Below are positions 3,370 through 56,966 of a stretch of 64,000 nucleotides of DNA, in pieces (position 1 is the first letter of the stretch; each line of letters starts with the position of its first letter). The translations under genes and the position numbers were made by a program. Source of the DNA: Steroidobacter denitrificans (GTDB taxonomy: Bacteria; Pseudomonadota; Gammaproteobacteria; Steroidobacterales; Steroidobacteraceae); the NCBI RefSeq assembly GCF_001579945.1, contig NZ_CP011971.1, forward strand, positions 1,824,001 through 1,888,000, read 5' to 3'. The notes under the pieces are model-generated. The model made no database searches. It saw only the letters and a program-made list of their open reading frames with translations, and was not told where the DNA came from.

Positions 3370-3393
3370 CTCCGGGAGAGCCTGTGGATGGGG

Positions 3394-8577: not shown

Positions 8578-8640
8578 GAGTTCCTCCATTGAGGTGATTG
8601 ATAAAGGGTTCTGCCGACGAGCGCATGGTTGTGGGCACCC

Positions 8641-12109: not shown

Positions 12110-12116
12110 GGGACGT

Positions 12117-12326
12117 TCAATCCGGCTTTTTGTTTTGCACCGGGCAGGTGCTTTGGCCAAGCAGGCGATAGCCTGGGCAGCGACCAGACAAACCTGTGAT
12201 GAGAGGCATGAATCCAATGAGTCCCAGCCAACGCCAGGATGAATCCAGCCACAGCGGGAGGCTGAGCAGAATCAGTCCGACGACGATGCGGACAATGCGA
12301 TCGAGACTTCCGACGTTGATTTGCAT
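12117..12326 (-). CDS. DUF2892 (YgaP transmembrane-like) small membrane protein
   Basis: A 69-residue protein beginning with NVGSLDRIVRIVVGLILL, the hallmark of DUF2892, with two membrane helices and the GRCPGYRLLGQSTCPV end where two cysteines sit. Related segments form the membrane tail of rhodanese YgaP. GGAGA precedes the ATG. It lies between the outer-membrane channel and the metallo-hydrolase genes. The family is certain by pattern; function is unknown. Confidence 0.85.
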   Translation of the reverse strand: MQINVGSLDRIVRIVVGLILLSLPLWLDSSWRWLGLIGFMPLITGLSGRCPGYRLLGQSTCPVQNKKPD

Positions 12327-12346
12327 GACGATCTCCTTGTGTTGAG

Positions 12347-13876: not shown

Positions 13877-13914
13877 GACAAGACTCCTTGAAGCAGGCGA
13901 AGGGATGCGCTCGC

Positions 13915-16493: not shown

Positions 16494-16497
16494 GGCC

Positions 16498-17661
16498 TCA
16501 CTCCAGGTTCTTGCGCGTGGAGCGCTTGGCGATCATGAAAAACAGCGCCCCGATCACCGCCATGGCCGCCAGGTTGGGCAGGAACACCGCCCAGATGTCA
16601 CCCGCCAGGAACACCGTCTTCAGCGAGTCCACGAAGTAGCGCGCCGGAACCACCCAGGTGATGGCCCGAATCGGTGCGGGCATCGCGTCGATCTCGTACA
16701 GAAAGCCCGACAGCATGAAAGCCGGCAGGAATCCCGTGAACAGCGCGATCTGCGCTGCCAGAAACTGATTGCGCGCCAGTGACGAGATCAGCAAGCCCTG
16801 GCCCAGCGCCGGCACCATGAACACCGCTGACAAGATCAGCAGCGCCGCCAGAGAGCCACGCATCGGGACGCCGAACACAAATACGGCCAGCGCCGCCGCG
16901 CCCAGCGTGGACAGCATGCCCAGCACAAAATACGGCAGCAGCTTGCCGATCAGGATTTCGGCCACCGAGGCGGGTGTGGAAAGCACGGCCTCCATGGTGC
17001 CGCGCTCCCATTCGCGTGCCACCACCAGCGCGGTCAGCATAGTGCCGATGATGGTCATGACGATGGCGATGGCGCCGGGGATCAGTGCTCGACGGCTTTC
17101 CAGCTCGGGGTTGAACCAGTAGCGCGGCTCCAGAACGACGGCTTGTGCGGGTACGTCCAGTCCGGCGCGCCAGGACTGGACAACGCCGCGGGCATAGTTT
17201 TCGACGTAATTGGCGGTGTTGGGGTAAGAGCCATCAGTGATGATCTGCACCAGTGGTTCGTTGCCGCGCCGTGCCAGGCGTTGCTCGAAGTCCTGCGGAA
17301 TCACCACATAGCCACGCAGCTCGCCTGACACCAGCTTGTCGGCCACCTCACGCCGGTCACGGACGAAGTGCGCATCCAGAAACCGTGTACCGGAAAAGGC
17401 CGCCGCAAGCTCTTGCGCCGCGGCACCGCGCGACTCCAGCACCACGCCGACACGAACCTCCTTGGCGTCCAGCGAGACCGCATAGGCGAACAACAGCAGC
17501 AACACCACCGGCAGCACGAACGCGATCAGCAGCGTCGAAGGGTCGCGCAGTGCTTGGTAACTTTCCTTGGTGACCAAAGCGGCCAGGCGCCGCAGGTCAA
17601 AGCGGCGCAAGCCAGTCTGCATCGGGCCATCAGCGTCCCTGTGCGGTGTAACGACATTCAT
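16498..17661 (-). CDS. ABC-2 type transporter permease (YbhS-like)
   Basis: A 387-residue ABC-2 permease with the same layout as its neighbour: an N-terminal helix after KESYQALRDPSTLLIAFVLP, a periplasmic domain, then WERGTMEAVLSTPAS and five helices. It ends in a basic tail (AKRSTRKNLE). Its start overlaps the ATPase stop by 4 bp (ATGA at 17658-17661). The pair matches the YbhR/YbhS subunits of drug/ion exporters. Confidence 0.9.
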   Translation of the reverse strand: MNVVTPHRDADGPMQTGLRRFDLRRLAALVTKESYQALRDPSTLLIAFVLPVVLLLLFAYAVSLDAKEVRVGVVLESRGAAAQELAAAFSGTRFLDAHFVRDRREVADKLVSGELRGYVVIPQDFEQRLARRGNEPLVQIITDGSYPNTANYVENYARGVVQSWRAGLDVPAQAVVLEPRYWFNPELESRRALIPGAIAIVMTIIGTMLTALVVAREWERGTMEAVLSTPASVAEILIGKLLPYFVLGMLSTLGAAALAVFVFGVPMRGSLAALLILSAVFMVPALGQGLLISSLARNQFLAAQIALFTGFLPAFMLSGFLYEIDAMPAPIRAITWVVPARYFVDSLKTVFLAGDIWAVFLPNLAAMAVIGALFFMIAKRSTRKNLE

Positions 17662-19430
17662 GCGGCGGCCTCCATTTCTCGGTCGGCGGACTCGACCAGG
17701 TGAATGAAGGCGTCTTCCATCGTCGGGTCGGGGCGTTCCGGGCTGATGGCCATACGTTTGAGCGCATCAGGCGTATCCAGCGCGATCAGGCGAGCGCGCG
17801 AGAGCATGGCGACGCGATCGCAGTATTCGGCTTCATCCATGAAGTGGGTGGTGACCATGATGGTCACGCCCTTGCGCGCCAGGCCGTTGATGTGCGTCCA
17901 GAATTCGCGCCGGGTGATCGGGTCCACGCCTGAAGTGGGTTCATCCAGGAACAGCACGGGCGGGCGGTGCATGAGCGAGCAGGCCAGCACCAGACGCTGC
18001 TTGTGCCCCAGCGGCAAGGAATCGGGCGTGGCACCGAGCCAGTCGGCGAGATCGAAGGTTGCGATCATTTCCTCGATGCGCTCGTGCCGCGTGCTGCCTT
18101 CCAGCCCGTAGACGCCGGCGGAAAATTCCAGGTTTTGCCGTACCGAGAGCAGACCGTAGAGCGAGAACTTCTGCGCCATGTAGCCGAGCCGGCTCTTGGC
18201 CACGCCGGTGGCTCGGCGCAGATCGTGCCCCACTACGTGCGCTTCGCCCGCAGTCGGCTTGAGCAGGCCACACAGCATCTTGAAGGTGGTGGATTTGCCA
18301 GCGCCATTGGGGCCGAGCAGACCGAAGATTTCGCCCTTTTGCACCTCGAAGCTGACGTTGTCGGTGGCAGTGAACTCGCCAAAGCGCTTGGTGAGATTCC
18401 GGCAGGAAACGGCAACGTCGGAATCCAGCTCGACCGGTGGCAGGCGCTCGGCGAGTTGCGATGTCCCGCCAGGACCGCCGCCGAGCAGGTCGATGAAGGC
18501 GTCCTCGAATCGCGCGGGCACCGCTGCCAGCCGCACCCGTGCCTGATCGGCCAGCGCCTGAATGGGCTGCGCCTGTGCGCCCTCGCGCAGCACCACGCGC
18601 ACCCCCGCGCCCTGAATCACGCCATCGCTCACGCTGGGCAGATCGAGCGCCTCGGTCAGGACCGCCCGACGCTCTGTGCCGACATCTTCGAGGCGAAAAC
18701 TGCGACCTTCGAGCTGCGCGGTCAGTTCCTGCGGTGGGCCATCGAACAGGAGCTGTCCCTGGTTCAGCAGCAAGACACTCTCGCAGCGCTCGGCCTCGTC
18801 AAGATAGGCAGTGGACCAGACCACAGCCATGCCCTCATCGGTCAGCGCCTGCACCATGCGCCACAAATCCTGACGGCTGACCGGGTCCACACCCACGCCG
18901 GGTTCGTCCAGCAGCAGCACCTTGGGCCGGGCCATCAGCGCGCAGGCAAGACCCAGCTTCTGCTTCATGCCGCCGGAGAGCTTGCCGGCGAGGCGCTTGG
19001 TGAAGGGGCCGAGTCGTGTGAAGTCCAGCAGTTCGGCAAACAGAGCGGCGTTGCGGTCCGCGTCTATGCCACGCAACTGCGCATACAGGCGCATGTTCTC
19101 CATCACCGACAGGTCTTCGTACAGACCGAAGCGTTGCGGCATGTAGCCGCTGGCGACGTGAATGGCGTCGTTGTCCTTGACCACATCGAAGCCGGCCAGG
19201 GTGACGTGACCGGCGTTGGGAGCCAGCAGGCCGGTAAGGATGCGCATCAGCGTCGTCTTGCCGGCGCCGTCCGGACCGACCAGACCCGTCAGCCGCCCGT
19301 AGTGGATGTGCGCGCTCAGGTTCCGCAGAGCCTGTACCTTGTCGAAATGCTTGTCCACGCCTTCGATGGCGACGGCGACATCGGCGGTCATGCCGTTCGG
19401 CGTGGGGGCGATGCCGGCGTTCGCGGGCAT
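17658..19430 (-). CDS. ABC transporter ATPase with two nucleotide-binding domains (YbhF-like)
   Basis: A 590-residue double ATPase. Domain 1 has Walker A GPDGAGKTT (about 52-60), signature LSGGMKQK and Walker B VLLLDEPGVGVD. Domain 2 has GPNGAGKST, the altered signature LPLGHKQR, and LFLDEPTSGVD. The altered second signature is normal for YbhF. The ATG at 19430 is chosen because it lies 1 bp after the adaptor stop with GGGGAA upstream; an ATG at 19472 would overlap that gene. It energises the two permeases encoded next. Confidence 0.92.
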   Translation of the reverse strand: MPANAGIAPTPNGMTADVAVAIEGVDKHFDKVQALRNLSAHIHYGRLTGLVGPDGAGKTTLMRILTGLLAPNAGHVTLAGFDVVKDNDAIHVASGYMPQRFGLYEDLSVMENMRLYAQLRGIDADRNAALFAELLDFTRLGPFTKRLAGKLSGGMKQKLGLACALMARPKVLLLDEPGVGVDPVSRQDLWRMVQALTDEGMAVVWSTAYLDEAERCESVLLLNQGQLLFDGPPQELTAQLEGRSFRLEDVGTERRAVLTEALDLPSVSDGVIQGAGVRVVLREGAQAQPIQALADQARVRLAAVPARFEDAFIDLLGGGPGGTSQLAERLPPVELDSDVAVSCRNLTKRFGEFTATDNVSFEVQKGEIFGLLGPNGAGKSTTFKMLCGLLKPTAGEAHVVGHDLRRATGVAKSRLGYMAQKFSLYGLLSVRQNLEFSAGVYGLEGSTRHERIEEMIATFDLADWLGATPDSLPLGHKQRLVLACSLMHRPPVLFLDEPTSGVDPITRREFWTHINGLARKGVTIMVTTHFMDEAEYCDRVAMLSRARLIALDTPDALKRMAISPERPDPTMEDAFIHLVESADREMEAAA

Positions 19431-19431
19431 C

Positions 19432-20472
19432 TCAGCGTTCCCCGGTGCGTCCGGTAGAGCCGGGTTGGGCATCGACCGCGATCGTCACCGGCATGCCCTG
19501 GCGCAGGGCACCGTCGCTGTCGGCTTCGTCGATGACGATGCGCAGCCGGTACACGAGGTCGGTGCGCAAGTCCGTCGTTTCCACGGTCTTGGGCGTGAAC
19601 TCGGCGCGCGGCGAGATGAAACCCACCTGGCCGCGATAGATCTTTTCCCCGGAGTCACTTTCGACGCGAACCGCGGTGCCGGGTGCGATGCGGCCCAGAT
19701 CCTGCTCGCCCACGTAGGCGCGCACGTACACAGGCTTGTCCAGGCTCAGGCTGTAGACCGCGCTCTGGCTCGCGACCATGCTGCCGGGTTCACGCACCCG
19801 CGCGATGATGGTTCCATCGCTGGGCGCCATCAGTTCGGTGTCTGCGAGGGACGTGGAGGCTTGTGATGCGGCTGCCTGGGCAGCCGCAAGGCGCGCCTCG
19901 GCCGCGGCAATGTCTTCCTTGCGGAAGCCTTCGGATGCTTGCGACAGAGCGGCCTTGGCTGATTCGACGCTCGCAGCGGCCTGATCCCTTGCGGTGCGGG
20001 CGGCATCGACCGTGCGCTGGCTGCTGGCACCCGATGCAAGCAGGCCGCTCTGGCGCTGAAAGTTGCGCTCGGCCTCGGTGGCGAGCGCCTGGGCCTGTCT
20101 GAGCGCCTCGCGCGCCTGGGTGATTTCCTGCGGCCGCAGGCCACGGCGCAACTTGTTCAACTCTGCCTGAGCCACTTGAGCCTGGGCCTGCGCTGCCGCG
20201 AGAGCTTCCCGATACGGCTGCGCGTCAAGCGTCGCCAGGAGCGCGCCGGCGCTGACGGCGTCACCCTCGTCGAACGCCATTTGCAGCACCCGGCCGGGCT
20301 GGCGGAAGGCCAGTTGCACCTCGCGAATGTCGACGTTTCCGTACAAGTACAGCGGACTGCCATCAACACTTGGACGCTGCATCCAGAAGTAGCCGAAGCC
20401 GCTGGCTATCGCGACGAACGCGGCAACGACAAGCGCACGCTTGGATTTGTTGGAAAGGCCGTTGAACTTCAT
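19432..20472 (-). CDS. HlyD-family periplasmic adaptor (YbhG-like)
   Basis: A 346-residue membrane-fusion protein. It has an N-terminal anchor (about 12-30), a lipoyl half around VDIREVQLAFRQPGRV, a long Ala/Gln-rich coiled coil (about 90-215), and the second lipoyl half at LMAPSDGTI. The family links an inner-membrane ABC exporter to an outer-membrane channel; both are encoded in the same run. Its start overlaps the tetR stop by 4 bp. The set tetR-hlyD-ATPase-permease-permease is the known ybiH(cecR)-ybhGFSR order. Confidence 0.9.
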   Translation of the reverse strand: MKFNGLSNKSKRALVVAAFVAIASGFGYFWMQRPSVDGSPLYLYGNVDIREVQLAFRQPGRVLQMAFDEGDAVSAGALLATLDAQPYREALAAAQAQAQVAQAELNKLRRGLRPQEITQAREALRQAQALATEAERNFQRQSGLLASGASSQRTVDAARTARDQAAASVESAKAALSQASEGFRKEDIAAAEARLAAAQAAASQASTSLADTELMAPSDGTIIARVREPGSMVASQSAVYSLSLDKPVYVRAYVGEQDLGRIAPGTAVRVESDSGEKIYRGQVGFISPRAEFTPKTVETTDLRTDLVYRLRIVIDEADSDGALRQGMPVTIAVDAQPGSTGRTGER

Positions 20473-21086
20473 TGCCCGGCCTCCAAGTCGCGGATACCAC
20501 GAAGGTAAATGGCAAACACACCTGGTGCGTCGCGACGGATGCGCGCTACATCGCTGTCCAACAGCGACTGCATCACTAACCCCTGAATGGAGCCGATGAA
20601 GAGGACAGCGGCTGCATCCAGGTCCAGTTCGGCATCCAGTTCGCCCCGCGTCTTGCCGGCTTCGAGCAGGCGACGCAACCGCTCGCCATAGTGATGAATT
20701 AAGGTCTGCACCATTCGCTTGGGCAGGGTCTCTCCCGGCCGCTGCAATTCGCCGAAGAGCATCCTCGGCACACCCGGATGGTCGGACACGAAGTCGATGT
20801 GCGTCATGAAGACCGCCTCAAGGGCGGCGATCGGAGACGCCACGCCTTCTGCCGCCTTGTCCACCCGAGCCAGCAGACGTTCCGTGACCCAGGACATCAC
20901 CGCCTGCAGGATGGCGTCCTTGGTCGGGAAGTGACGAAACAAAGCCCCTTGGGTCAGCCCCATGCGCTGGGCGATGGCCGTGGTCGTGATGTCGCTGGGG
21001 TTCTGCTCGGCTGCCAGATTGACCACTGCCTCGACTGTGGCCGCGCGCCGCTCATCGGCCGGCAGATGCTTGGGGTGTCCGCTCAT
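20469..21086 (-). CDS. TetR-family repressor (CecR/YbiH-like) of the cargo 1 run
   Basis: A 205-residue regulator. The TetR DNA-binding domain spans about residues 10-55 with ITTTAIAQRMGLTQGALFRHFPTKDAIL. The rest is the helical ligand and dimer domain. The ATG at 21086 has GGAAG upstream; a GTG at 21095 is a less likely start. It is the first gene of the run and a perfect palindrome lies 21 bp upstream, so it probably represses itself and the exporter. CecR homologues sense drugs; the ligand here is unknown. Confidence 0.9.
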   Translation of the reverse strand: MSGHPKHLPADERRAATVEAVVNLAAEQNPSDITTTAIAQRMGLTQGALFRHFPTKDAILQAVMSWVTERLLARVDKAAEGVASPIAALEAVFMTHIDFVSDHPGVPRMLFGELQRPGETLPKRMVQTLIHHYGERLRRLLEAGKTRGELDAELDLDAAAVLFIGSIQGLVMQSLLDSDVARIRRDAPGVFAIYLRGIRDLEAGQ

Positions 21087-21106
21087 TGCTTGCACTTCCG
21101 AAAGTA

Positions 21107-35094: not shown

Positions 35095-36480
35095 TCAGCT
35101 CGGCGAATTGCCAAAACGACTGCCCAAGTCGATCAACAGGTTATTATCACTCATCGTAGTGGGAAGAGTCAGGCATGCCTCGACGCCTGAATCCTGTCCG
35201 GGCCTCGGCGACTTCAGGACCAGCGCACTGCCGATGCGCTGGGCAATCGCATGAACGATCGCCAGCCCAAGACCACTGCCATCCCTGAGCTTTCCCGCGC
35301 GCTCGAATCGGTCCGCCAACCGGGCAAGGGTTTCGTTCGGCACGACAGGCCCATCGTTGGCGACCGTCAGTACGCCGTCGCTGGCCAGCGAAACATGGAT
35401 GGGCGTGCCGTCCGCGCCATGGCGCAGGGCGTTTTCGACGAGGTTGCGATAGAGGATCGAGAACACGTCGGGATCGAGATCCGACATCAGAGGATCGGTC
35501 GGCAGCGACAGGGAGATTCGATCCGCGCCCGCCGTGCGAGACAACTCGTCGGTCAGGATGCGCGCGACGGGCCGCAGATCCGAGACGTGTTCCAGGCGCA
35601 GCCGTCCGCCTTCGGCCCGTGCCAATTGCATCAAGCGTTCGGAGAGTCGCGTCAGGCGCTTGAGTGTCGCTTCGATATCGGACGCGCGGGCCTTTGTCGC
35701 CGGCTCGCCCGTCTCTGCCTGCAAGCGCTGGGCCTGCGCGATGGCACCCGCCAGCGGCGTGCGCAGTTCATGGGCGGCATTGGCAGCGAAGCTGCGCTCG
35801 GCCTCGAAGGCGGCGCCGAGTCGCCCGAGCAAGCCATTGAGGGTGTCGGCCACCGGCGCGACCTCTGCCGGCAGTTCATCCGCCGGGACCAGCGACAGAT
35901 CGCGTACCCCACGTGCCGCCAGCCGTTCACGAAAGCGCCGCAAGGGAGCCAGGGTCGTACGCACGGTCAGCACGATGGCCAGCAGCGCAATGGGCAGAAA
36001 AATCAACAAGGGCAGAACCAAACCCATCTGGATTTCACGCGCCACGACCATGCGATGCGCTAGCGGTTCGGCGACAGTGAGCCGGATAGAGCCTTGCAGT
36101 GTCTCTTCGCTGTAGAAGCGGTGGGTTGTGGACTGACTGAATCCGATGCCACTCCAATGAGGGAAGACCACCGGGTTGGCGTCGTGCGAAAGCAGCAGGA
36201 TGCGTCCTTGGGCATCGCGCACGGCATAGGTGAGCAGTTCGTTGTGCTCGCGGATTTCGGCCAGGCGCTGGGTCACCCCTTCTTCCTCACGCCCAAGGAC
36301 GTCCGCGACGGCCAGCGGCAGGATTCGCTGCGCCGTTTCCTGGAGGGCCGAGTCAAATACTTCCTCGATGGCATTGCGCGCCAGGACCGCCGTCACCGAA
36401 GCGGCACCGATCCAGAGCCCCGTCAGCAGGACTCCCAGCGAAAGCCCCAAGCGCCGCTGCAGGCTTGCGGGCATCCTCAT
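35095..36480 (-). CDS. Sensor histidine kinase (QseC-like) of cargo 2
   Basis: A 461-residue kinase. Two membrane helices (about 11-33 and 153-175) flank a periplasmic sensor domain (about 34-152). HAMP-like linker, then H-box FAANAAHELRTPLAG with His237, N-box NLVENALRHG and G-box GSGLGLAIV. The ATG at 36480 overlaps the response-regulator stop (ATGA). The pair points away from the redox genes and probably controls them through the shared 129-bp gap. The signal is unknown; metal or redox is plausible from the context. Confidence 0.9.
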   Translation of the reverse strand: MRMPASLQRRLGLSLGVLLTGLWIGAASVTAVLARNAIEEVFDSALQETAQRILPLAVADVLGREEEGVTQRLAEIREHNELLTYAVRDAQGRILLLSHDANPVVFPHWSGIGFSQSTTHRFYSEETLQGSIRLTVAEPLAHRMVVAREIQMGLVLPLLIFLPIALLAIVLTVRTTLAPLRRFRERLAARGVRDLSLVPADELPAEVAPVADTLNGLLGRLGAAFEAERSFAANAAHELRTPLAGAIAQAQRLQAETGEPATKARASDIEATLKRLTRLSERLMQLARAEGGRLRLEHVSDLRPVARILTDELSRTAGADRISLSLPTDPLMSDLDPDVFSILYRNLVENALRHGADGTPIHVSLASDGVLTVANDGPVVPNETLARLADRFERAGKLRDGSGLGLAIVHAIAQRIGSALVLKSPRPGQDSGVEACLTLPTTMSDNNLLIDLGSRFGNSPS

Positions 36481-37136
36481 GCCTGCCCCAACCGATAGCC
36501 TAGTCCGCGTTCGGTCACGATGATCTCGGCGCCCAGTTTCTTGCGCAGGCGGCTGACATGCACCTCGATGGCGTTGCTCTCCACTTCGGCATCGAAGGCA
36601 TAAAGCTTTTCCTCCAGTTGCGCTTTCGAGAGCAACTGGCCGGGTCGGGACAGGAATGCCTCGAACAACGCCCATTCGCGCGCCGTCAGCGGCACCAGGC
36701 GGCCGTCACGGCGGATGCTGCGCGCGGCCAGATCGATCTGGAGTGGTCCATGGATGACGATGGGATTGGGGTTGCCGCTGTATCGACGTGCAACCGATCC
36801 GATGCGCGCCGACAACTCGGCCAGATCAAAGGGCTTCACGAGATAGTCGTCGGCACCGGCATTCAGTCCCTCGATCCGGTCTGACACCTGATCGAGGGCC
36901 GTCAGGATGATGACCGGCGTGGCCGCGCCCCGCGCGCGCAGGCGTCGCAGGAAGGGAGTGCCCCGGCCATCGGGCAACATCAGGTCCAGCAGGACGAGGT
37001 CGTAAGGCACGCCCGCGATCGCATGGTCCGCGGCATCGAGGCGACGCACCCAATCCACGGAATGACCATCGCTCGCGATCTGGTCGCGCACGGCTGCGCC
37101 CAGCACGTCATCGTCTTCAATCAGCAGGACACGCAT
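36477..37136 (-). CDS. OmpR-family response regulator of cargo 2
   Basis: A 219-residue regulator. The receiver domain has the acidic pair EDD (7-9), Asp51 in LLDLMLPDG and Lys in LVKPFD. The C-terminal winged helix ends in EVHVSRLRKKLG and TERGLGYRLG. It is divergent from the PepSY gene across 129 bp that should hold the target promoter. Partner of the kinase encoded next. Confidence 0.92.
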   Translation of the reverse strand: MRVLLIEDDDVLGAAVRDQIASDGHSVDWVRRLDAADHAIAGVPYDLVLLDLMLPDGRGTPFLRRLRARGAATPVIILTALDQVSDRIEGLNAGADDYLVKPFDLAELSARIGSVARRYSGNPNPIVIHGPLQIDLAARSIRRDGRLVPLTAREWALFEAFLSRPGQLLSKAQLEEKLYAFDAEVESNAIEVHVSRLRKKLGAEIIVTERGLGYRLGQA

Positions 37137-37265
37137 TGAACCTTTCCTCTATGGGCCAACGCAACGGCATACCTGACGGCAACCTGAAGCAATTTTCGCT
37201 CAGGGCTCAGGCTGCGGTCACGTTGGCAGAGCATCCTCAAGCCATCAAGGATAAAGGAGCTCACC

Positions 37266-37658
37266 ATGAAAACATTCCTGCCGATTGCCGTAGTGATCGC
37301 GCTGACCGCCTCTGGCGCCGCGCTGGCTGACGACGATTGCCACCGTCCCATGGCCGAATGGCAGTCCCGCGAAACCGTTACGGCCCGTGCAACCGAACTG
37401 GGCATCACGACAGAGCGCCTGCGCATCGACGATGGCTGCTACGAAGTCCGTGGCCGGGACGGTGACGGCAACCAGATTCGTTTGAAGATCGACCCGGCGT
37501 CGCTCGCGGTCCAGAAACTGGAGGTCCGCTTCCGCTCTGGCGCCGACTCGTCGCGCTACCTGCCTGCTGGGCGAGGTCAAGCGGCCAAGACGGGTAAGCC
37601 CTCTGATGACAAATCGCGGCGCCCGCCCGCCCCGGCGGCGCCGGAGGGCACGCGCTAA
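37266..37658 (+). CDS. Periplasmic PepSY-domain protein
   Basis: A 130-residue secreted protein with a signal peptide (about 1-21, ALA-DD). The PepSY-like domain follows, with the pattern RATELGITTERLRIDDGCYEV and IRLKIDPASLAVQKLEV. The tail is basic and proline-rich. AAAGGAG precedes the ATG. Such small PepSY proteins often sit with QseBC-like systems and membrane reductases and may bind metal or act as sensors. First gene of the redox run; the next starts 10 bp later. Confidence 0.8.
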   Translation: MKTFLPIAVVIALTASGAALADDDCHRPMAEWQSRETVTARATELGITTERLRIDDGCYEVRGRDGDGNQIRLKIDPASLAVQKLEVRFRSGADSSRYLPAGRGQAAKTGKPSDDKSRRPPAPAAPEGTR

Positions 37659-37668
37659 GGAGTGCGCC

Positions 37669-38937
37669 ATGTACCTGACGGGACCGATATTGGCCACCCT
37701 GGCCGTTCTGTACGCGGCCATGCTCGGTGCACAGACTTATGCGCCCTATGGTGCGGACGTCGCAATAGGCATTGCACTGGGCGCGGCATCCATTACTGCC
37801 ATGAGTCTGGCCTTGGTCTTGTCCGCCCGCCCGCGTTGGGCCGAACCCCTGTTTGGGGGGCTCGATCGGATGTATGAGGTTCACAAATGGCTGGGAATTG
37901 CCGCACTGGCCCTGATGATCGGGCACAACACCTTCGAGCCCGAGCTAGAAGGTGTCGTGCGCGAAACGCGACTGGGGGAATTTGCTTCGGACGTCGGTGA
38001 AGTCGCATTCAATGGCCTCATCGGGCTGATCCTGATCAGTTGGATCAAGCGGATTCCCTTCACTCGACTGGAGTTGCCCTGGCCGATCTGGCGCTTCACT
38101 CACCGCTTCACAGGGCTTCTGTTTGCCGTCGCCGCATTCCACCAGCTTGCCATCGATCAGCCTGCCGGCCTGGATGGCACGCTGGGCCTGTACCTGAACG
38201 CCTTGAGCCTGGCAGGGTTGGCGGCTTGGCTGTTCATGCAGTTCGTCGCACCGTACCTGCGTCCGCGTGCATTTGTGCTGGAGAACATCGACCAGCACGG
38301 AACGGTCGCGGAAATGACGCTGCGCCCAGAAGGGCGAGCCCTGCGCTGGCGGCCGGGTCAGTTCGCCTTCCTGTCGGCCTCCGATGTGGGGATGGCCGAG
38401 GCTCATCCCTTCACCATAGCAAGTGCACCGAGTGCGGACGGTCGCCTCCGCTTCGCCATCAAATCCCTGGGCAACTGGACCCGGCGTCTGCCCGAACGTC
38501 TGTCACCCGGTAAGCGCCTGCGGGTCGAGGGGCCTTATGGTCGGTTCGTTTTCCGCAGGCGCGTGCGGCGCCAGGTATGGCTGGCCGGCGGCATCGGCAT
38601 CACACCTTTCCTGGCCTGGGCCGAGGCATTGACCGATGCCGATCAGCAGGAGATCGCTCTGGTCTGGGTGGTGACGACGCGACCCGAAGCTTTCGCCGCA
38701 GAGCGCTTGGCGACCATTGCCGCACGCCATCCTGGCCTGACGGTGCATGTCATGGCCAGCGCCGAAGACGGGTGCTTGACAGCGCAACGGCTAATCCAGT
38801 TGGTGCCCTTCCCGCTGTGCGAATCGGAGCTGTTTTATTGCGGACCGGCTGGCCTGCGTGATGCGGTCGTGTCGGGACTCCAGGCGACGGGGCAGCGCCC
38901 GCGTCGCGTTCATCACGAGGTGTTCGCGCTGCGCTAG
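37669..38937 (+). CDS. Ferric-reductase-like flavocytochrome (membrane b-haem, FAD/NAD domains)
   Basis: A 422-residue protein. Six or so membrane helices occupy residues 1-200, with haem-type histidines in EVHKWLG, MIGHNTF, THRFTG and AFHQLA. The soluble half has HPFTIAS (FAD), GPYGRFVF, AGGIGITPFL and FYCGPAGL. It should pass NAD(P)H electrons outward. Homologous to the cargo 1 protein at 13915 but about 65 residues shorter. AAGGAG at 37657-37662 fixes the ATG at 37669. Confidence 0.88.
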   Translation: MYLTGPILATLAVLYAAMLGAQTYAPYGADVAIGIALGAASITAMSLALVLSARPRWAEPLFGGLDRMYEVHKWLGIAALALMIGHNTFEPELEGVVRETRLGEFASDVGEVAFNGLIGLILISWIKRIPFTRLELPWPIWRFTHRFTGLLFAVAAFHQLAIDQPAGLDGTLGLYLNALSLAGLAAWLFMQFVAPYLRPRAFVLENIDQHGTVAEMTLRPEGRALRWRPGQFAFLSASDVGMAEAHPFTIASAPSADGRLRFAIKSLGNWTRRLPERLSPGKRLRVEGPYGRFVFRRRVRRQVWLAGGIGITPFLAWAEALTDADQQEIALVWVVTTRPEAFAAERLATIAARHPGLTVHVMASAEDGCLTAQRLIQLVPFPLCESELFYCGPAGLRDAVVSGLQATGQRPRRVHHEVFALR

Positions 38938-38988
38938 AGGCGCCCGCACCTCCACGAACGACATCGTTCTACTTGCGAAGGAATCATC

Positions 38989-39459
38989 ATGAAAAAGCTC
39001 GTCTCTTGCCTGGCCCTGTCCGCAGCCATGGCGCTGCCCAACCTGGCTGCGGCACGTCCGGTCACCTTGACCACCACGCTCAAGAACTATGGAGGCAATG
39101 GCGCCTATCTAGCGCTGTACCTGACCGATGCAAACGGCGCCTATGTGCGCACACTGTGGGTCGCGGGTGAGAAATCGAAGTATTACAAGCACCTGCCGGA
39201 CTGGTATCGCGCGACCGGCGGCAACCGCTCGCAGATCGATGGCATCACCGGTGCCAGCGTGGGCGCAGGCCGCAGCCTGAAGGTGACGGTGGACCTGGCC
39301 GATGCCCTGTTCGATGCGGGCTACAAGCTGAACGTGGATGCCGCCGTAGAGGATATGCAGGACAGTCCACGTGACGTTTCGGTGCCACTGACGACCGCCG
39401 GGGCTGGCAAGCCCGTCGCCGGGCGGCGCTATGTCGCCGGCTTCAGCTACGGCCTCTGA
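38989..39459 (+). CDS. DUF2271 periplasmic protein with a predicted flavinylation site
   Basis: A 156-residue secreted protein with a signal peptide (about 1-21, AAA-RP). The DUF2271 domain has WVAGEKSKYYKHLPDWYR and then QIDGITGASVGAG. Residues 84-90, DGITGAS, match the D-x-x-(S/T)-(G/A)-A-(S/T) pattern to which ApbE attaches FMN, the last residue (Ser90) being the expected acceptor. An ApbE gene lies in the same run. It would be a covalent flavin carrier in the periplasm. GAAGGA precedes the ATG. Motif seen; modification inferred. Confidence 0.85.
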   Translation: MKKLVSCLALSAAMALPNLAAARPVTLTTTLKNYGGNGAYLALYLTDANGAYVRTLWVAGEKSKYYKHLPDWYRATGGNRSQIDGITGASVGAGRSLKVTVDLADALFDAGYKLNVDAAVEDMQDSPRDVSVPLTTAGAGKPVAGRRYVAGFSYGL

Positions 39460-39480
39460 TCCTGATCGGAAGCTGCCGCG

Positions 39481-41688
39481 ATGATGCGTATCCTGCACCG
39501 CTGGCTGGGCCTCGTACTGGCCGTCCTGCTGTTTGTCACGGCGCTGAGCGGCGCGGCACTCTCGCTCTTTCCGGCGCTGGAGAGCGCTCGAAGCTTGCAA
39601 CCCGATGTCACGCTGACAGTGGCCGATCTGGCCGCGCGGGTGCAAGCGGCTCATCCCGGCCTGGAACAGATCAAGCGCGCACCCTCGGGGCAGATCAGTG
39701 CGTGGTGGTTCGATGGCGACCAGCCCGGTTCGGCCGTGATCGACCCGGCCACAGGCCGCGATGTGGCCAGCGCCGACCCGAATCCGCTGCGGCGCTGGCT
39801 CACCAATTTGCATCGCTCGCTGCTCTTGGGCGACACCGGCCGCATGATCGTCGCGGCGGGCGCACTGGCGATGCTGCTGCTGGCCATTTCCGGCGTGGTG
39901 CTGGTGGTCCGTCGCCTGGGAGGCTGGCGACACTGGTTGGCACGCCTGCGCGGCCCGCTCGCAGGACGCCTGCATACCGATATCGCGCGTGTGGCGGTGC
40001 TCGGGCTCGCGCTGTCCGCCATGACCGCACTGTGGATGTCGGCCGAAACCTTCGAGATCGTCACGATCGATGCCGCCAGCCTGGAAACGCCTGCCACGGT
40101 CAGCGGCCAGACCGGCCTGGCGCTGGCCGAGATGCAAGCCCTGCGCGCTGTGCCGGCGGCCGAACTGCGCGAACTGAGCTTTCCCGCACCAGACGATCCA
40201 CAAGACATGTTCACCCTCAGGACCGACCGGGGCATGGGGTATGTGGATCAGGGAACCGGCACCCTGCTGGGCTGGCAGGACCTGAGCCTCGGGCAACGCG
40301 CGTCGGAGACGATCTACATGCTGCACACCGGGCAGGGCGCTGCCGTGCTCGGGCTGTTCCTAGGCGTGATGGCGCTGGGGGTGCCGGTACTGGCCGTGAC
40401 GGGGGTACTGGTGTGGCTGCCGGGATGGCGCAACCGCCCCCAGCTCACAGGCAACGCACCGGCCGCGCAGGCCGACACCATCGTGCTGGTGGGCTCCGAG
40501 GGCGGCAGCACCTGGGGTTTTGCCGCGACGCTGGCCCGCGCCTTGCGTGATGCAGGGCAATCGGTACACGTGGCCCCCATGACAGCCTTCCAGCCCGCAC
40601 GCTATCGCCGGGCGCGGCGCTTCCTGATTCTCGCCGCCACCTATGGCGAGGGCGATGCCCCAGCCTCGGCCAAGGGCTTTCTCGCTCGGCTCCAGACCCT
40701 GGAGACCGTGCCCACCGCTCCGCTGGCGGTACTGGGTTTCGGCGATCGCAGCTTCCCGGCCTTCTGCGCATTCGCCCGCGCTGTGGACAACGCCGCCCGG
40801 AACAAGGGCTGGCCTGCCCTGATGGCCTTCGACACTATCGACCGCCAGTCGCCGCAGGACTTTGCCCGCTGGGGCCGAATACTGGGCCAGGCGCTTGGCA
40901 TCGAACTGGAACTCGTCCACCAACCGGATCTTCCGGCCACCCAGACGCTGACCTTGCTGGAGCGCCATGACTACGGCGCGGCGGTGCAGGCGCCGATGTC
41001 GATCCTGCGCTTCGCGCTGCCCAAGGCTTCGCTCTGGCAGCGCCTGGCAGGCCAGCGCTTCACGCAATTCGAGCCAGGCGACTTGCTGGGCATCGTGCCC
41101 GAAGGCTCGGCGGTTCCTCGCCTGTATTCCCTGGCATCGGGATCACGGGACGGTTTCATCGAAATCGTCGTGCACCGGCATGTCGGCGGCCTGACCTCGG
41201 GCCAACTGACTCAATTGGAGCCCGGCCAGACGGCCCAGGGGTTCTTGCGGCGTCATCCGGGCTTCCATGCGGGCCGCGACCGGACGCCTCTGATCCTGAT
41301 CGGAGCAGGCACCGGGGTGGGGCCACTGGCAGGTTTCATCCGCAACAACAAGTCACACCGCCCCGTTCATCTGTTCTTCGGACTGCGCCAACCCGACAGC
41401 GATTTTCTCTATCGCAATGAGCTGTCGGACTGGCAGGCCGATGGCAAGCTGGCTCACCTGTCCATCGCAGTCTCGCGCGGGGAGCGGCCGCAGTACGTGC
41501 AGGACGCCCTGCGACAGCAAGCGCCACGGATCACGGCTGCCATCAGCCAGGGCGCCAGGATCATGGTGTGCGGAGGGCGGGACATGGCGCGCGGTGTGGC
41601 CGATGCACTGACCGACATCCTGAAGCCAACCGGGTTGACGCCTGCAATGCTCAAGGTCGGGGACCGCTATGTCGAAGACATCTACTGA
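39481..41688 (+). CDS. PepSY membrane / flavodoxin / NADPH-flavin reductase fusion
   Basis: A 735-residue fusion. The N-terminal PepSY-TM part (about 1-325) begins LHRWLGLVLAVLLFVTALSGAALS and has four helices with NLHRSLLLG and YMLHTGQG histidines. A flavodoxin-like domain follows (about 332-475; LAATYGEGDAP, LGFGDRSF). The last part (about 495-735) is a sulfite/P450-reductase-like module with RLYSLAS, GAGTGVGPLAG, FFGLRQPDSDFLYRNEL and VCGGRDMARGV. It can take electrons from NADPH through FAD and FMN to the membrane. Its stop overlaps apbE by 20 bp. Confidence 0.88.
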   Translation: MMRILHRWLGLVLAVLLFVTALSGAALSLFPALESARSLQPDVTLTVADLAARVQAAHPGLEQIKRAPSGQISAWWFDGDQPGSAVIDPATGRDVASADPNPLRRWLTNLHRSLLLGDTGRMIVAAGALAMLLLAISGVVLVVRRLGGWRHWLARLRGPLAGRLHTDIARVAVLGLALSAMTALWMSAETFEIVTIDAASLETPATVSGQTGLALAEMQALRAVPAAELRELSFPAPDDPQDMFTLRTDRGMGYVDQGTGTLLGWQDLSLGQRASETIYMLHTGQGAAVLGLFLGVMALGVPVLAVTGVLVWLPGWRNRPQLTGNAPAAQADTIVLVGSEGGSTWGFAATLARALRDAGQSVHVAPMTAFQPARYRRARRFLILAATYGEGDAPASAKGFLARLQTLETVPTAPLAVLGFGDRSFPAFCAFARAVDNAARNKGWPALMAFDTIDRQSPQDFARWGRILGQALGIELELVHQPDLPATQTLTLLERHDYGAAVQAPMSILRFALPKASLWQRLAGQRFTQFEPGDLLGIVPEGSAVPRLYSLASGSRDGFIEIVVHRHVGGLTSGQLTQLEPGQTAQGFLRRHPGFHAGRDRTPLILIGAGTGVGPLAGFIRNNKSHRPVHLFFGLRQPDSDFLYRNELSDWQADGKLAHLSIAVSRGERPQYVQDALRQQAPRITAAISQGARIMVCGGRDMARGVADALTDILKPTGLTPAMLKVGDRYVEDIY

Positions 41689-42652
41689 ACTGATCCGCCA
41701 TGCGCTGAACGGCTCGACCATGGGCACGCGCTGGTCCGCCCTGTTTTTCGCCGCGCCGGGATTCGACACTGGCCCGGTGCAGGCAGCCTTGCAGCAGGCA
41801 ACCGACGAGGTGGATACGCAGATGTCCACCTGGAACCCGGACAGCGACCTGATGCGCCTGAACCGGACGCCGGTGGGCACATCAGCCGTGGTGCCGGACG
41901 ACCTCGCCCGCGTGCTGGCCTTGGGCCTGGCCATCGGGCGCGCTTCCGGCGGAGCCTTCAATATCGGTATGGGCGATGCCGTGCAAGCCTGGGGCTTCGG
42001 CCCGCAAGCCGCCAATGAAGAAGGCATACGCCGCGCCTTGGCCGCACCCCGACGCGCCGCCCACCAGGTGCTGGAACTGACGGGCAACCAGGTGCGCAAA
42101 CGGGAAGCCATCGTGCTTGACCTGAATGGCATCGCCAAGGGATACGGGGTGGACCGGCTGGCGCAAACCCTACGCAGCTTCGGCATCACCGCAGGACTGG
42201 TCGGCATCGACGGCGAGATGCGCGCACTGGGCCTGCGGCCCGATGGCGAGGCATGGACCATTGCGGTCGAAGCGCCCGACCCAGACAGCCGCGCGCCGCA
42301 TTCGATCCTGTGCCTACACGATGGCGCTGTCGCCACCTCCGGCGACTACCGGCACGGCGTGACGGTACAGGGACGCCGCTTGTCGCACACGATGGACCCG
42401 CAGCGAGGCGCGCCGCTGCTGTCTTCGCCAGCATCGGTCACCGTGCTTGCTCCGACCTGCGCAGAAGCCGACGCTTGGGCCACGGCCCTCATGGTGGCCG
42501 GCCCCGAAGCCGGCACGGCACTCGCCACGCGACAGGGACTGAGCGTGTTGTTCCTGATGCGGGATGGCAGGGGCGGGCTACTGTCAAAAGGATGCGGATT
42601 GTTCCAGGCTGGGGACCGAAGTCGGCGAACTGCACAATCCATTCGATGCTGA
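41669..42652 (+). CDS. apbE: ApbE-family FAD:protein FMN transferase
   Basis: A 327-residue enzyme with NGSTMGTRWSA near the N-terminus, IGRASGGAFNIGMG, LDLNGIAKGYGVDR, VGIDGEMRALG, VATSGDYRHG and the closing HTMDPQRGAPL. These are the ApbE substrate and magnesium-site blocks. It moves FMN from FAD onto Thr/Ser of partner proteins; the DUF2271 protein two genes upstream is the obvious target. No clear signal peptide is seen, which is odd for a periplasmic enzyme and leaves its side of the membrane open. Probably the last gene of the ICE. Confidence 0.9.
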   Translation: MSKTSTELIRHALNGSTMGTRWSALFFAAPGFDTGPVQAALQQATDEVDTQMSTWNPDSDLMRLNRTPVGTSAVVPDDLARVLALGLAIGRASGGAFNIGMGDAVQAWGFGPQAANEEGIRRALAAPRRAAHQVLELTGNQVRKREAIVLDLNGIAKGYGVDRLAQTLRSFGITAGLVGIDGEMRALGLRPDGEAWTIAVEAPDPDSRAPHSILCLHDGAVATSGDYRHGVTVQGRRLSHTMDPQRGAPLLSSPASVTVLAPTCAEADAWATALMVAGPEAGTALATRQGLSVLFLMRDGRGGLLSKGCGLFQAGDRSRRTAQSIRC

Positions 42653-42842: not shown

Positions 42843-43208
42843 TCAAGCCCTGCGTGATCTGCACGAAGGACTTGACACCGGAACTTTTTTGTCTCGCCGC
42901 GGCGGGTGCGACGGTGTCACCGAGCGGCCTTGCAAGCGTATCGGCAGCGCTGGCGCCTCGGGTTCATCTTCCACCGACCATTGTTCCTTGAATGCCTGCA
43001 ATGCTTCGTTCTGCACCGCTGCATGGCGGTTGGACAGCATGAGCGATGCCGGCGCACACACGCGTGCCCGGATCAATCCCAGGTCTTCGGCGGCATCAAA
43101 CAGGCTCGGATACCAGCTTTGCCAGGCAGGCAGCAGCAAATCCACCTTTTCACGCAGACTCAGGCGCGCAAAAATCTCCGGCTCCAAGGTGTCGGGAACG
43201 ATGCTCAT
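42843..43208 (-). CDS. Hypothetical host protein, probably truncated by the ICE
   Basis: A 121-residue frame starting ATG at 43208. The first 85 or so residues look like a real, soluble, acidic/hydrophobic protein (FARLSLREKVDLLLPAWQSW, DEPEAPALPIRLQG). The last 35 residues turn Ser/Pro/Arg-rich and run across the T-rich site at 42885-42892. I read this as a host gene whose natural 3' end was replaced by ICE DNA. No family was recognised. Confidence 0.5.
   Translation of the reverse strand: MSIVPDTLEPEIFARLSLREKVDLLLPAWQSWYPSLFDAAEDLGLIRARVCAPASLMLSNRHAAVQNEALQAFKEQWSVEDEPEAPALPIRLQGRSVTPSHPPRRDKKVPVSSPSCRSRRA
42885..42892. other. Candidate right attachment site of the ICE
   Basis: A T-rich TTTTTTGT lies at the point where element genes give way to chromosomal ones, inside the 3' part of a small host gene. 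Tn4371 itself is reported to recombine at a short T-rich core. The other end is outside the window, so no direct repeat can be shown. The 190 bp after apbE (42653-42842) hold two weak hairpins (42665-42680, 42786-42806) and no gene. Confidence 0.35.
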
Positions 43209-43353: not shown

Positions 43354-44142
43354 TCATGCAAGCATCCACGAAGGCACATCCTTCCAGGCGCGCGACAGCT
43401 CACGATCGAGTTGGCGGTACGCCGGTTCATAGCTCGCCACCAGCGACCAGAAGTGCCGGGAATGATTCATGAAGCGGGTATGACACAGCTCATGAATGAA
43501 CAGGTAACGCAGCACCGCAGGCGAGGTGAACATCAAACACACATTCAGGCTGATGGTGCCGCTGGCCGAACAGCTTCCCCAGCGGGTGCGCTGCCGACGA
43601 ATTTGGACGCGGCGAAAGGGCAATTCGCATTGCTGCGCCACGGCACGCAGAGAGCGGCTGAATTCGATTTCCGCCAGCGAGACCAGCCAGCGCCGTAACG
43701 CCCCGGCTACGGCACGCTCATCCTGCACCGCTCCTTGCACCAACAAGGTATCCGCCACACCCGTGAGAACGCGTACGGATGCGGATGTCCGACGATAGTC
43801 GACGTCATATTGCCGGGCAATCGCCGGAAGAGAAATCAGCGCCGGGCGCGGCTCCTGCGACGGTCGTGCGACAGTCGAGAAATCTTCGATACGCCGTTGG
43901 ATCCATTGCCGGTGCAGGTCCACGAAGCGCTGAACGGCAACCGCCGAGACGCCTTGCGGCACGACCACTTCCACCCGCCCGCCAGGAAATACGCGCACCG
44001 AAAGGCGGCGTGCTCTGCGGCTCACCCGCACCGTCCACGGCTCCATGGCTTCCGGCGATTCGAACAATGACAGCTGGCTGGACATGCCGGGGCCTATTTC
44101 CAGAAGCACGTTTCCATACGCCGAGTCTGCCCGGTGTGTCAT
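43354..44142 (-). CDS. YgjP-like (DUF45, M48-type) metal-dependent hydrolase
   Basis: A 262-residue protein with the zinc motif HELCH in LRYLFIHELCHTRFMNHSRHFW near the C-terminus. The N-terminal RRARRLSVRVFPGGRVEVVVPQG and central RRQRTRWGSCSASGTISLN blocks complete the YgjP/DUF45 pattern. Function of the family is not settled; a peptidase fold is clear. Start at 44142 has GGTGAGG upstream; ATG at 44085 would give 243 residues. First firm host gene after the ICE; divergent from tatD. Confidence 0.85.
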   Translation of the reverse strand: MTHRADSAYGNVLLEIGPGMSSQLSLFESPEAMEPWTVRVSRRARRLSVRVFPGGRVEVVVPQGVSAVAVQRFVDLHRQWIQRRIEDFSTVARPSQEPRPALISLPAIARQYDVDYRRTSASVRVLTGVADTLLVQGAVQDERAVAGALRRWLVSLAEIEFSRSLRAVAQQCELPFRRVQIRRQRTRWGSCSASGTISLNVCLMFTSPAVLRYLFIHELCHTRFMNHSRHFWSLVASYEPAYRQLDRELSRAWKDVPSWMLA

Positions 44143-55362: not shown

Positions 55363-55838
55363 CTCCAGCATCGAGGAAGTCAGGGGAGCCGACAATGTAC
55401 AATTTTATGGTGGGTCGGGAGGGGATCGAACCCTCGACCAACAGATTGTAAAGACGACCTTTTTGCGCATTGCAACTCAGCGGTACGCACGGCACGGTTT
55501 TGTAAGTTATCGATTTCAGATGCTTACCGGGCGCCGTCGCGTTCGTCGTGATGCGTGCCGGTGCGTGCGGTGGAGTTAGTCACTGCACCGAATTTGCACG
55601 AAATCGGCGCCAAGGGATTTTTTTGGCCTGGGTTTTCTTACTCGGTGCCACCGAGAACCGTATGCATTACGGCATGCGTTTCACTACCAGTGCTCAAGCA
55701 TTCGTACTGCATACGTTTTTGATGCTCTTGGGTGAGCATGATTTCGTGCAATTTCGTGCAATCGCTAGTGGACGGCCAAGAACTCGTCTCAACTGTGGGG
55801 GAAATACCGTTGGATACGTCTGTTGCGTGCTCTGCCGG
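55363..55838. other. Left part of the tRNA-Lys mini-island, no gene seen
   Basis: No supported gene in these 476 bp. The stretch contains the displaced tRNA-Lys 3' fragment at 55408-55442. The following DNA is more AT-rich than the host average, with repeated words such as GATTTCGTGCAATTTCGTGCAA around 55740-55761. It could be the remnant of a larger integrated element. Confidence 0.5.
55402..55442. repeat. Displaced tRNA-Lys 3' fragment (left att repeat)
   Basis: Forty-one bases identical to 56886-56926, covering the CCA end, acceptor strand, T arm and part of the variable region of tRNA-Lys, plus seven bases beyond the 3' end. The match breaks at 55443, with GATT still shared just after. 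It cannot form a full tRNA. It marks one boundary of the mini-island. Confidence 0.8.
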
Positions 55839-56554: not shown

Positions 56555-56891
56555 GGCTGAATTATGGACTTCAATACATATGGCGTCAACGCCATACCAG
56601 TTCCTGCAAACTCGGTGCCCGGCCGTGGTCGCTATTCGCCGGGGACCGTCATCGCGCCCCAGATCGCCCGCACGTGGCGTGGGACGCGGCGTTACGGATC
56701 AGGTTCGAGACTTTTACCGGGCCGTCAAACAAGGGTCGACCGGTCCCGATTCGCCCGGAGGAGCGTTGCAGCGGGCTCAAAGCCCCACAAACACTCGAGC
56801 GCTATGACCACGAATTACCGGTGGTGGATCCGGCAAAAGCGCTCGAATTGCCAGAAGGCAAGAAGTCGAAGCTCGTAAACCATTGATTTTA
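56555..56891. other. Right part of the mini-island, no intact gene
   Basis: Beyond the promoter, this 337-bp stretch has no gene I can support. A plus-strand frame ends at 56886 with QTLERYDHELP and a basic tail, directly against the tRNA repeat. That is where an integrase would usually end, but the sequence does not show integrase motifs. It may be a degraded remnant. Confidence 0.4.
56561..56595 (-). promoter_or_regulatory. Toxin-antitoxin promoter and operator
   Basis: On the minus strand TTGACG (56584-56589) and CATAAT (56561-56566) are 17 bp apart, a good sigma-70 promoter. The -35 lies inside a perfect palindrome, ATGGCGT-TG-ACGCCAT (56580-56595), the likely antitoxin operator. The predicted start of transcription falls at about 56554, the first base of the toxin ATG. 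Confidence 0.75.
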
Positions 56892-56966
56892 TGGTGGGTC
56901 GGGAGGGGATCGAACCCTCGACCAACGGATTAAAAGTCCGATGCTCTACCACTGAGCTACCGACCC
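56892..56966 (-). tRNA. tRNA-Lys (anticodon TTT)
   Basis: A complete 75-nt cloverleaf including encoded CCA. Acceptor arms are GGGTCGG and CCGACCC, the anticodon loop is CTTTTAA giving TTT, and the T arm is GAGGG-TTCGATC-CCCTC. It reads lysine codons AAA/AAG. The D loop is short. The 3' half is duplicated at 55402-55442 because it served as an integration site. Confidence 0.95.

Follow-up and report, generated by a model that had tools for sequence, protein, structure and literature searches.

A probable mobile, PepSY-like flavinylation operon with its own two-component pair at the end of a Tn4371-type element in Steroidobacter denitrificans

Introduction

What does a set of flavin and heme proteins do at the extreme end of a conjugative element, and how would the flavin reach its carrier? 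Five genes at positions 37266-42652 of a 64,000-nucleotide stretch of the Steroidobacter denitrificans genome (hereafter the window; NZ_CP011971.1, 1,824,001 to 1,888,000) encode a small PepSY protein, a flavocytochrome, a DUF2271 protein, a membrane fusion protein and an ApbE flavin transferase. They lie just inside the right end of an integrative and conjugative element (ICE) of the Tn4371 type, beside divergent genes for a sensor histidine kinase (HK) and a response regulator (RR). The operon is probably a mobile, two-component-regulated flavinylation system of the PepSY-like kind, which would pass NADPH electrons to a periplasmic metal acceptor. This account draws on features read from sequence, namely the gene content, the ICE ends, a conserved acceptor serine, invariant histidine sets, operator-like repeats and an ApbE without a recognizable signal peptide.

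The operon and its predicted electron route

Open reading frames (ORFs) and Pfam matches bear out five co-directional genes with the domains that an original prediction, made from the sequence alone, had given them. The first encodes a small PepSY_2 protein (37266-37658, + strand; Pfam PepSY_2, 1.3e-21) whose N-terminus, judged by eye, is signal-like and whose Cys25 and Cys58 are kept in at least 95% of 71 relatives. It is followed on the same strand by a flavocytochrome (37669-38937; Pfam Ferric_reduct, FAD_binding_8/6 and NAD_binding_1), the DUF2271 protein (38989-39459; Pfam DUF2271, 1.1e-37), a PepSY_TM-flavodoxin-reductase fusion (39481-41688; PepSY_TM (PF03929), 1.9e-35, with Flavodoxin_1 and NAD_binding_1) and ApbE, a FAD:protein FMN transferase (41669-42652; Pfam ApbE, 4.7e-75) whose start overlaps the fusion gene. 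This ApbE aligns with solved FAD:protein FMN transferases and retains the TSGDYR and SHT-DP stretches. The clustering of a PepSY_TM (PF03929) protein with ApbE and a DUF2271 substrate is that of PepSY-like flavinylation systems.

Relatives were gathered by using the DUF2271 protein as query against species genomes of bacteria and archaea; the best 80 of 92 were kept, the operon and ICE proteins were compared with these 80 loci by tblastn, and genes in the related loci were called with a simple ORF script. The order that recurs is a divergent HK and RR, PepSY_2, an optional b-type cytochrome, DUF2271, the fusion and ApbE. The fusion was found in all 80 loci and ApbE in 56, and cytochrome b561 lies between RR and DUF2271 in 9/80 by the ORF script. 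In a broad class sample, DUF2271 was above the cut-off in 3 of 75 genomes, S. denitrificans itself included.

Transmembrane electron transfer, as originally predicted, finds support in both membrane proteins. His6, His111, His165 and His282 of the fusion are kept in 76/76 relatives, and His72, His86, His145 and His158 of the flavocytochrome membrane domain in all 19 matches that cover at least 70% of it; these sets appear to fit two-heme membrane reductases. The reductase part of the fusion resembles cytochrome P450 reductase and CysJ, and the best 60 of 102 matches to the fusion protein in a PDB sequence search were soluble reductase and flavodoxin chains only. Ser665 and Arg666 stand in all 75 readable relatives (5/80 are unreadable there) and Tyr672 in 65 of the 75, within an SR...YVQ stretch that we take to be a signature of NADPH-type reductases.

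In the proposed scheme, the fusion would take up electrons from NADPH at its FAD and flavodoxin domains and pass them by way of its heme sites to the periplasmic face, with the flavocytochrome as a parallel route to the same side. The DUF2271 protein, with FMN attached to Ser90 by ApbE, at a site in the cell discussed below, would then carry these electrons on to a metal, with ferric iron as the likeliest acceptor. The HK, perhaps with PepSY_2 as its periplasmic partner, would sense metal or redox state, and the RR would bind 11-bp-spaced CTGA repeats between the divergent units and turn the operon on.

Several observations weigh against this account or parts of it. The flavocytochrome is found between RR and DUF2271 in just 11 of the 80 loci, and 12/80 are without a cognate regulator (some lie on cut contigs; L044 and L068 are short or cut). 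Residue 84, the aspartate of the acceptor motif, is not conserved (D in 54/80, N in 21, Q in 3, A in 1 and R in 1). The operon ApbE has no recognizable signal peptide, and its presumed DUF2271 substrate is exported. Finally, the VIT1 transporters and P-type ATPases that point to metals in a minority of related loci were not seen beside the operon in the window ICE, and such transporters may export metal, which would fit metal stress as well as iron gain.

The predicted FMN acceptor of the DUF2271 protein

Residues 84-90 of the DUF2271 protein read DGITGAS and match the ApbE acceptor pattern D-x-x-[ST]-[GA]-A-[ST], just as had been claimed; the predicted FMN acceptor, Ser90, is encoded at 39256-39258. 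With TGAS at 87-90 and an N-terminus hydrophobic by hydropathy, the protein has both the [S/T]GA[S/T] motif and the signal peptide of DUF2271 proteins in PepSY-like systems. Signal-like N-termini are general among the 80 DUF2271 proteins, with 11-residue Kyte-Doolittle means of 1.61 to 2.79. No second match to the acceptor pattern occurs in the other four operon proteins, the HK or the RR, and another ApbE target among them was rejected on this ground. Export of a pre-flavinylated protein by the Tat route was likewise rejected, as a twin arginine is absent from the first 14 residues in 80/80.

Ser90 is invariant in the 80 relatives, as are Gly85, Gly88 and Ala89, and residue 87 is Thr or Ser in all of them. 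The predicted covalent flavinylation of DUF2271 is consistent with this invariant serine; the idea itself is not new, since ApbE flavinylation of a DUF2271 protein was demonstrated earlier (PMC8238504). Conservation of the whole motif beside apbE holds in part only: in the loci that carry ApbE, the serine stands in 56/56 but the aspartate in 31/56.

The variation at Asp84 is uneven, with D in those 31 of 56 loci against 23 of the 24 in which ApbE was not seen (5 of the 24 on cut contigs). At least seven changes can be placed on the tree, none of them inside a clade of 19 loci without ApbE, and the residue varies only where the operon carries ApbE or the contig is cut. Because all 19 loci that truly lack ApbE fall into a single clade, the association counts as one event, and a link between relaxed Asp84 and the operon's own ApbE is suggestive only. 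If real, it would mark a matched pair of enzyme and substrate. The ApbE acceptor aspartate has been termed strictly conserved, yet its change to Ala was of minor effect in a Klebsiella fumarate reductase, according to an excerpt of a review (PMC12052999).

Carriage on an integrative and conjugative element

The operon was predicted to be ICE cargo, and it is. S. denitrificans has a genome of one contig (3,467,246 bases), in which the ICE spans 54,296 bp. Its left end lies 11.4 kb before the window (L003 8589, genome position 1812589), and its right-hand 42.9 kb, recognized by transfer genes, end repeats and homology limits, fills window positions 1-42892. The sequence TTTTTTGT occurs at both ends, at L003 8589 and at window position 42885, where it forms the attR core (42885-42892) and coincides with the limit of homology. 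It is a repeat of the TTTT(C/T)(A/G)T type found at the ends of Tn4371-family ICEs, and an excerpt of the family's description lists it for two Tn4371-type ICEs, in S. maltophilia K279a and P. aeruginosa PA7 (PMC2789088 Table 4). Searches for att sites by exact words of at least 11 bases and by the classical TTTTTCAT found no ends; they were found only through comparison with other ICE copies. Homology with three of these (L018, L023 and L025) passes ApbE and stops at 42891-42900.

An integrase gene stands at the left end (L003 8742-9971; tyrosine integrase at genome 1813390-1813884, upstream of the window and after acnA), and its product shares 96.8% identity with site-specific integrases of plasmids whose annotation places a PDDEXK nuclease next to them. 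Genes for YhcG/DUF1016, RadC and ParB follow. The window continues with ParA, DUF2840, a relaxase with DUF3363, a first cargo block and then the transfer genes for TraG, a TrbB-like ATPase, TrbE, TrbL, TrbF (VirB8), TrbG, a TrbI-like protein (its match lies below the cut-off of the TrbI model) and DUF2274. Maintenance and transfer genes thus stand in an order similar to that of Tn4371-family ICEs, as judged against the published description only.

Two further features of the ICE may be recorded. The first cargo block (8116-21095) encodes a cytochrome c', an LpxR-like outer-membrane protein, a LOG/lysine-decarboxylase-family enzyme, an outer-membrane efflux protein, a second Ferric_reduct flavocytochrome (13915-15543), two ABC-2 permeases, an ABC ATPase, an HlyD protein and a TetR regulator. 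Just before the ParA gene, three near-identical 19-base repeats with a spacing of 23-24 bases (3392-3457) are iteron-like.

The operon ends about 230 bp inside attR, beyond trbI/DUF2274, and this position at the extreme end would also suit a set of chromosomal genes that was there already and happens to border on the ICE. Such an origin is extremely improbable. It is rejected on the homology with the three other ICE copies, which extends past ApbE to TTTTTTGT, on the empty sites of congeners and on the lack of a close DUF2271 match in them. On the chromosomal side of the junction, the ICE splits the 3' end of a small gene downstream of acnA, recognized by same-genus comparison (orf42843, 42843-43208, - strand). 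Seven of seven same-genus stretches have acnA and this gene 0.9-2.2 kb apart with no insert, and joining the ICE flanks restores a plausible basic end of the gene like that of congener G061, where the gap from acnA is 0.9 kb. No operon protein (E 1e-8) was found in 11 acnA-ygjP stretches (7 same-genus, 4 from other families; L104 ends before ygjP), and no DUF2271 match (E 0.001) in any of the 13 other genomes of the genus, two of which are less than 90% complete.

Copies in other orders extend the picture. In L023 and L025, trbG-trbI-DUF2274 precede the HK gene as they do in the window, and L018 shares 96% DNA identity with the window over 7.8 kb. The three loci (Nevskiales and Lysobacterales; two are metagenome-assembled genomes, MAGs) nest among Burkholderiales in the fusion-protein tree, a quick tree of 74 of the 80 loci with the window left out. 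L018 (4313-12902, on a Nevskiales MAG contig) is itself a shortened ICE, in which integrase fragments and a trbI remnant are joined to the HK/RR pair and the operon.

DUF2271 relatives also occur in 97 plasmid records, of which 71 are typed conjugative and 38 come from one species, Pseudosulfitobacter pseudonitzschiae. Six plasmid stretches were compared, five annotated and the sixth without gene annotation. Two alphaproteobacterial plasmids encode HK, RR, PepSY, a cytochrome, PepSY, DUF2271, the fusion, ApbE and a P-type ATPase, one of them VIT as well. A Shinella plasmid has an IS6 transposase after the fusion and only a remnant of ApbE, a Cupriavidus plasmid holds the operon set with ApbE and without a cytochrome, and the Salmonella enterica plasmid NC_021819.1 (L146) carries the operon without ApbE and with VIT1/CCC1. 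Given the ICE copies in other orders and the plasmid records, carriage of the operon on mobile DNA is real and recurrent.

Two side observations come from these loci. On NC_021819.1, a QseBC-like pair lies near an mcr-9 gene in the same 26-kb stretch as the operon. In some alphaproteobacterial versions a small-protein gene, of a cluster present in L035 (8512-8910) and six other loci, stands just before DUF2271; the L035 product (132 aa) has no Pfam match and long Asp/Glu runs, read in L035 only, and is possibly metal-binding.

Two-component pair and operator-like repeats

The two-component genes run divergent from the operon. The HK (35095-36480, - strand; 2CSK_N, HisKA and HATPase_c by ORF and Pfam) has several His, Glu and Asp residues in its periplasmic part that are conserved among relatives. 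The RR (36477-37136, - strand) is of the OmpR type and PmrA/QseB-like by profile matches. NCBIfam scores fall below the cut-offs for the RR (198.8 of 330 for PmrA, 197.1 of 345 for QseB) and for the HK (183.9 of 475 for QseC); the pair resembles PmrA/QseB and QseC and does not belong to the PmrAB or QseBC equivalogs by cut-off. An RR more than 60% identical with an adjoining HK was found in 68/80 loci, and a divergent PepSY_2 gene within 800 bp in 66/80.

The original prediction had put the operon under this pair, and conserved repeats upstream of the RR support that suggestion. Between the RR and PepSY_2 genes lies an operator-like 11-bp direct repeat, CTGACGGCAACCTGA (37173-37187), the sole match to CTGA-N7-CTGA or TCAG-N7-TCAG in the 64-kb window, and a degenerate second half, CTCAGGCTGCGGTCAC (TCAG-N7-TCAC), can be read at 37206-37221. 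Repeats were counted in up to 150 bp upstream of each RR gene, for the window and for the 68 loci whose RR is more than 60% identical to that of the window; the remaining 12 loci were dropped. Spaced by 11 bp, a CTGA-type repeat occurs in 67 of these 69 regions and in both orientations in 48; the exact TCAG-N7-TCAG form is present in 56/69, the window being without it. Other spacings from 7 to 17 bp reach at most 5 regions each, and 200 mononucleotide shuffles gave a mean of 0.245 regions with a repeat and a maximum of 2. The count is to be read as conservation among related sequences, not as 67 independent events. The preference for 11 bp is nevertheless sharp, and such a repeat spacing is typical of OmpR-type regulators.

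A sensor kinase of Vibrio cholerae is regulated directly by the small PepSY protein encoded next to it, according to an excerpt of that study (PMC12714742), which suggests a role for the window PepSY_2 protein; by analogy it is perhaps the periplasmic partner of the HK.

An ApbE without a recognizable export signal

ApbE had been predicted to flavinylate the periplasmic carrier; that prediction had missed that the enzyme has no recognizable signal peptide. The criteria for a signal peptide were hydropathy and a lipobox pattern. The signal peptide or lipobox of a secreted ApbE was found in none of the 56 operon ApbEs, whose N-terminal 11-residue Kyte-Doolittle means have a median of 0.37 and reach 1.55 at most; most begin MSKTST or similar. 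A misannotated start that hides a signal peptide is unlikely in 53/56 loci, where an in-frame stop lies 5 to 24 codons upstream, and cannot be judged in the other three (35, 42 and 124 open codons).

The pairing of a signal-less ApbE with an exported DUF2271 protein is conserved over 56 loci and contradicts the usual picture of a secreted ApbE supplied with exported FAD. A tentative reading, with somewhat less than an even chance of being right, is that in this branch a dedicated ApbE without a signal attaches FMN to DUF2271 while the carrier is still in the cytosol, either ahead of Sec export or in its course. ApbE needs no more than a seven-residue motif (PMC12052999, excerpt), and the unfolded precursor might therefore serve as its substrate. 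If this reading is true, FAD export would be needless for the DUF2271 carrier. Searches of open-licence full texts turned up no discussion of a cytosolic ApbE with an exported substrate.

Alternatively, the operon ApbE would not act on DUF2271 at all; a secreted lipoprotein ApbE of the host would do so, and the operon enzyme would have a cytosolic target. For this there is precedent, as the soluble fumarate reductase of Klebsiella requires a cytosolic ApbE and the cytosolic ApbEs named in the excerpt of that review have intracellular targets (PMC12052999). ApbE was sought genome-wide in 40 genomes, 23 with an operon ApbE (of 56 loci) and 17 without one (of 19 with enough contig). The best ApbE elsewhere carries a lipobox in 17/17 genomes whose operon lacks the gene, and S. 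denitrificans itself has three ApbE matches, one of them with a lipobox (C1:428869). However, 7 of the 23 genomes (mostly draft assemblies, one MAG) gave no ApbE match besides that of the operon, the acceptor motif is in no other operon or two-component protein, and the Asp84 changes, none of them in the ApbE-less clade, suggest that operon ApbE and DUF2271 are matched. We consider a host enzyme acting in place of the operon ApbE rather unlikely. Across the branch, DUF2271 seems to be served either by the signal-less operon ApbE or by a lipoprotein ApbE in trans.

The signal-less state is not supported as a mark of this branch alone. A query with the canonical DUF2271 protein of S. denitrificans matched 19 plasmid records, of which 12 were compared (4 annotated, with DUF4198; a Deinococcus one without it; 7 unannotated). 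Nine of the 12 clusters hold ApbE, and hydropathy (at most 1.75) pointed to a clear signal peptide in none of these enzymes, though only the first candidate starts were examined for five unannotated ones. The state may perhaps be common to DUF2271-linked ApbEs at large, against which counts the Amantichitinum ApbE, described as signal-peptide-truncated in eLife 2021 (PMC8238504).

Separately, the third ApbE of S. denitrificans (L017 44-2274, C1 near 2949848) follows a DUF3570 gene and has no signal peptide either. The DUF3570 protein carries the motif DTLTGAS, and the pair is a second case, in this genome, of an ApbE-substrate family beside a signal-less ApbE.

Metal acquisition or metal defense

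Metal or siderophore reduction had been proposed as the purpose of the relay; metal handling is likely, and a siderophore link found no support at the locus, receptors not having been searched for specifically. Gene clusters neighboring the operon in at least 3 loci numbered 30, 6 of them the operon's own, and 10 of the 24 others were named by Pfam from one representative each, so receptors could be missed. VIT1 is present in 16/80 loci (one cluster representative named by Pfam) and P-type ATPases in 20/80, 12 of these with the metal-type [CST]PC motif and several with other kinds of pump. On one conjugative plasmid both follow immediately after ApbE. PepSY-like clusters are tied to VIT1, TonB receptors and Fur (PMC8238504), and insertions in a Caulobacter cluster lower fitness under EDTA chelation, according to an excerpt of that work (PMC11870441). 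Metal handling is likely because of these neighbors and the iron ties of published relatives, and iron is most likely the metal.

The same relay could instead serve defense against metal (Fe, Mn, Co or Cu) or redox stress, with the two-component pair as a sensor of metal excess. This has not far below an even chance, and metal excess in place of starvation is a serious rival as the inducing signal. It draws on the VIT1 and P-type ATPase genes (SPC, TPC and CPC) near some relatives, some of them convergent or in line with the operon, on the conserved His and Glu residues of the sensor domain, and on the ICE and plasmid carriage, which is usual for stress cargo. We know of no resistance phenotype for such operons. 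The characterized relatives, however, are iron-limitation genes (PMC8238504; PMC11870441, excerpt). Flavin relays of the extracytosolic kind are thus carried by ICEs and plasmids along with a sensor and an operator of their own, which brings the question of their inducing signal within reach.

Other features of the window

A 46-base repeat at a tRNA-Lys gene occurs at 55402-55447 and 56886-56931, its copies lying 1484 bases apart and enclosing an HTH gene, and looks like a small separate insertion. An ARAGORN call of tRNA-Asp inside the ygjP gene (43625-43716) is probably false.

Comparison with known systems

Systems of this kind are already known, and the mobile, two-component-controlled variant is the new part. 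Méheust et al. cataloged 3220 PepSY-like clusters in eLife 2021, with 1077 PepSY-like genes that also have a NAD-binding domain and VIT1 in 167 clusters (PMC8238504). The present branch shares with them the PepSY_TM protein, the DUF2271 protein with [S/T]GA[S/T] and ApbE. It differs in its divergent two-component pair and repeat operator, its small PepSY_2 protein, a second heme/FAD reductase in some members, an ApbE without recognizable signal and its carriage on ICEs and plasmids. The main text of PMC8238504 is without the terms "histidine kinase", "cytoplasmic", "cytosolic ApbE" and "horizontal", and "two-component" occurs in a reference only. What is new is thus the ICE cargo, the cognate pair with its repeats, the invariant Ser90 against a variable Asp84, and the signal-less ApbE, which in some genomes is the sole ApbE found.

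Single parts can be set beside other known systems. FoxB-like PepSY_TM heme reductases have two pairs of heme-ligand His in the membrane domain; the fusion keeps four His, which may be such ligands. DbfQRS and BqsRS-type modules, in the excerpt of PMC12714742, likewise place a small PepSY protein beside an OmpR-family pair, whereas the presumed target operon here is a membrane electron-transfer system. Tn4371-family ICEs, as far as the excerpt of PMC2789088 describes them, have in common with the window ICE the transfer and maintenance genes, an integrase followed by a PDDEXK gene and RadC, and TTTTTTGT; the window ICE differs by the flavin operon between trbI/DUF2274 and attR.

Both branches of DUF2271 system meet in one genome, S. 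denitrificans also having a canonical cluster (C1 1252892-1256506; L005 2893-6507) that encodes a PepSY_TM-like protein, a DUF2271 protein with DGVTGAT, DUF4198 and a flavodoxin/reductase. Like its Caulobacter counterpart (CCNA_03155-03159), it has in common with the mobile operon the DUF2271 protein, a PepSY membrane protein and a flavodoxin/reductase. The canonical type differs in the presence of DUF4198 and, in Caulobacter, a link to Fur (PMC11870441, excerpt); the 12-kb stretch read around the S. denitrificans copy revealed neither ApbE nor a two-component pair, and all three of the genome's ApbE matches lie elsewhere, whereas the mobile operon brings its own ApbE and its own two-component pair.

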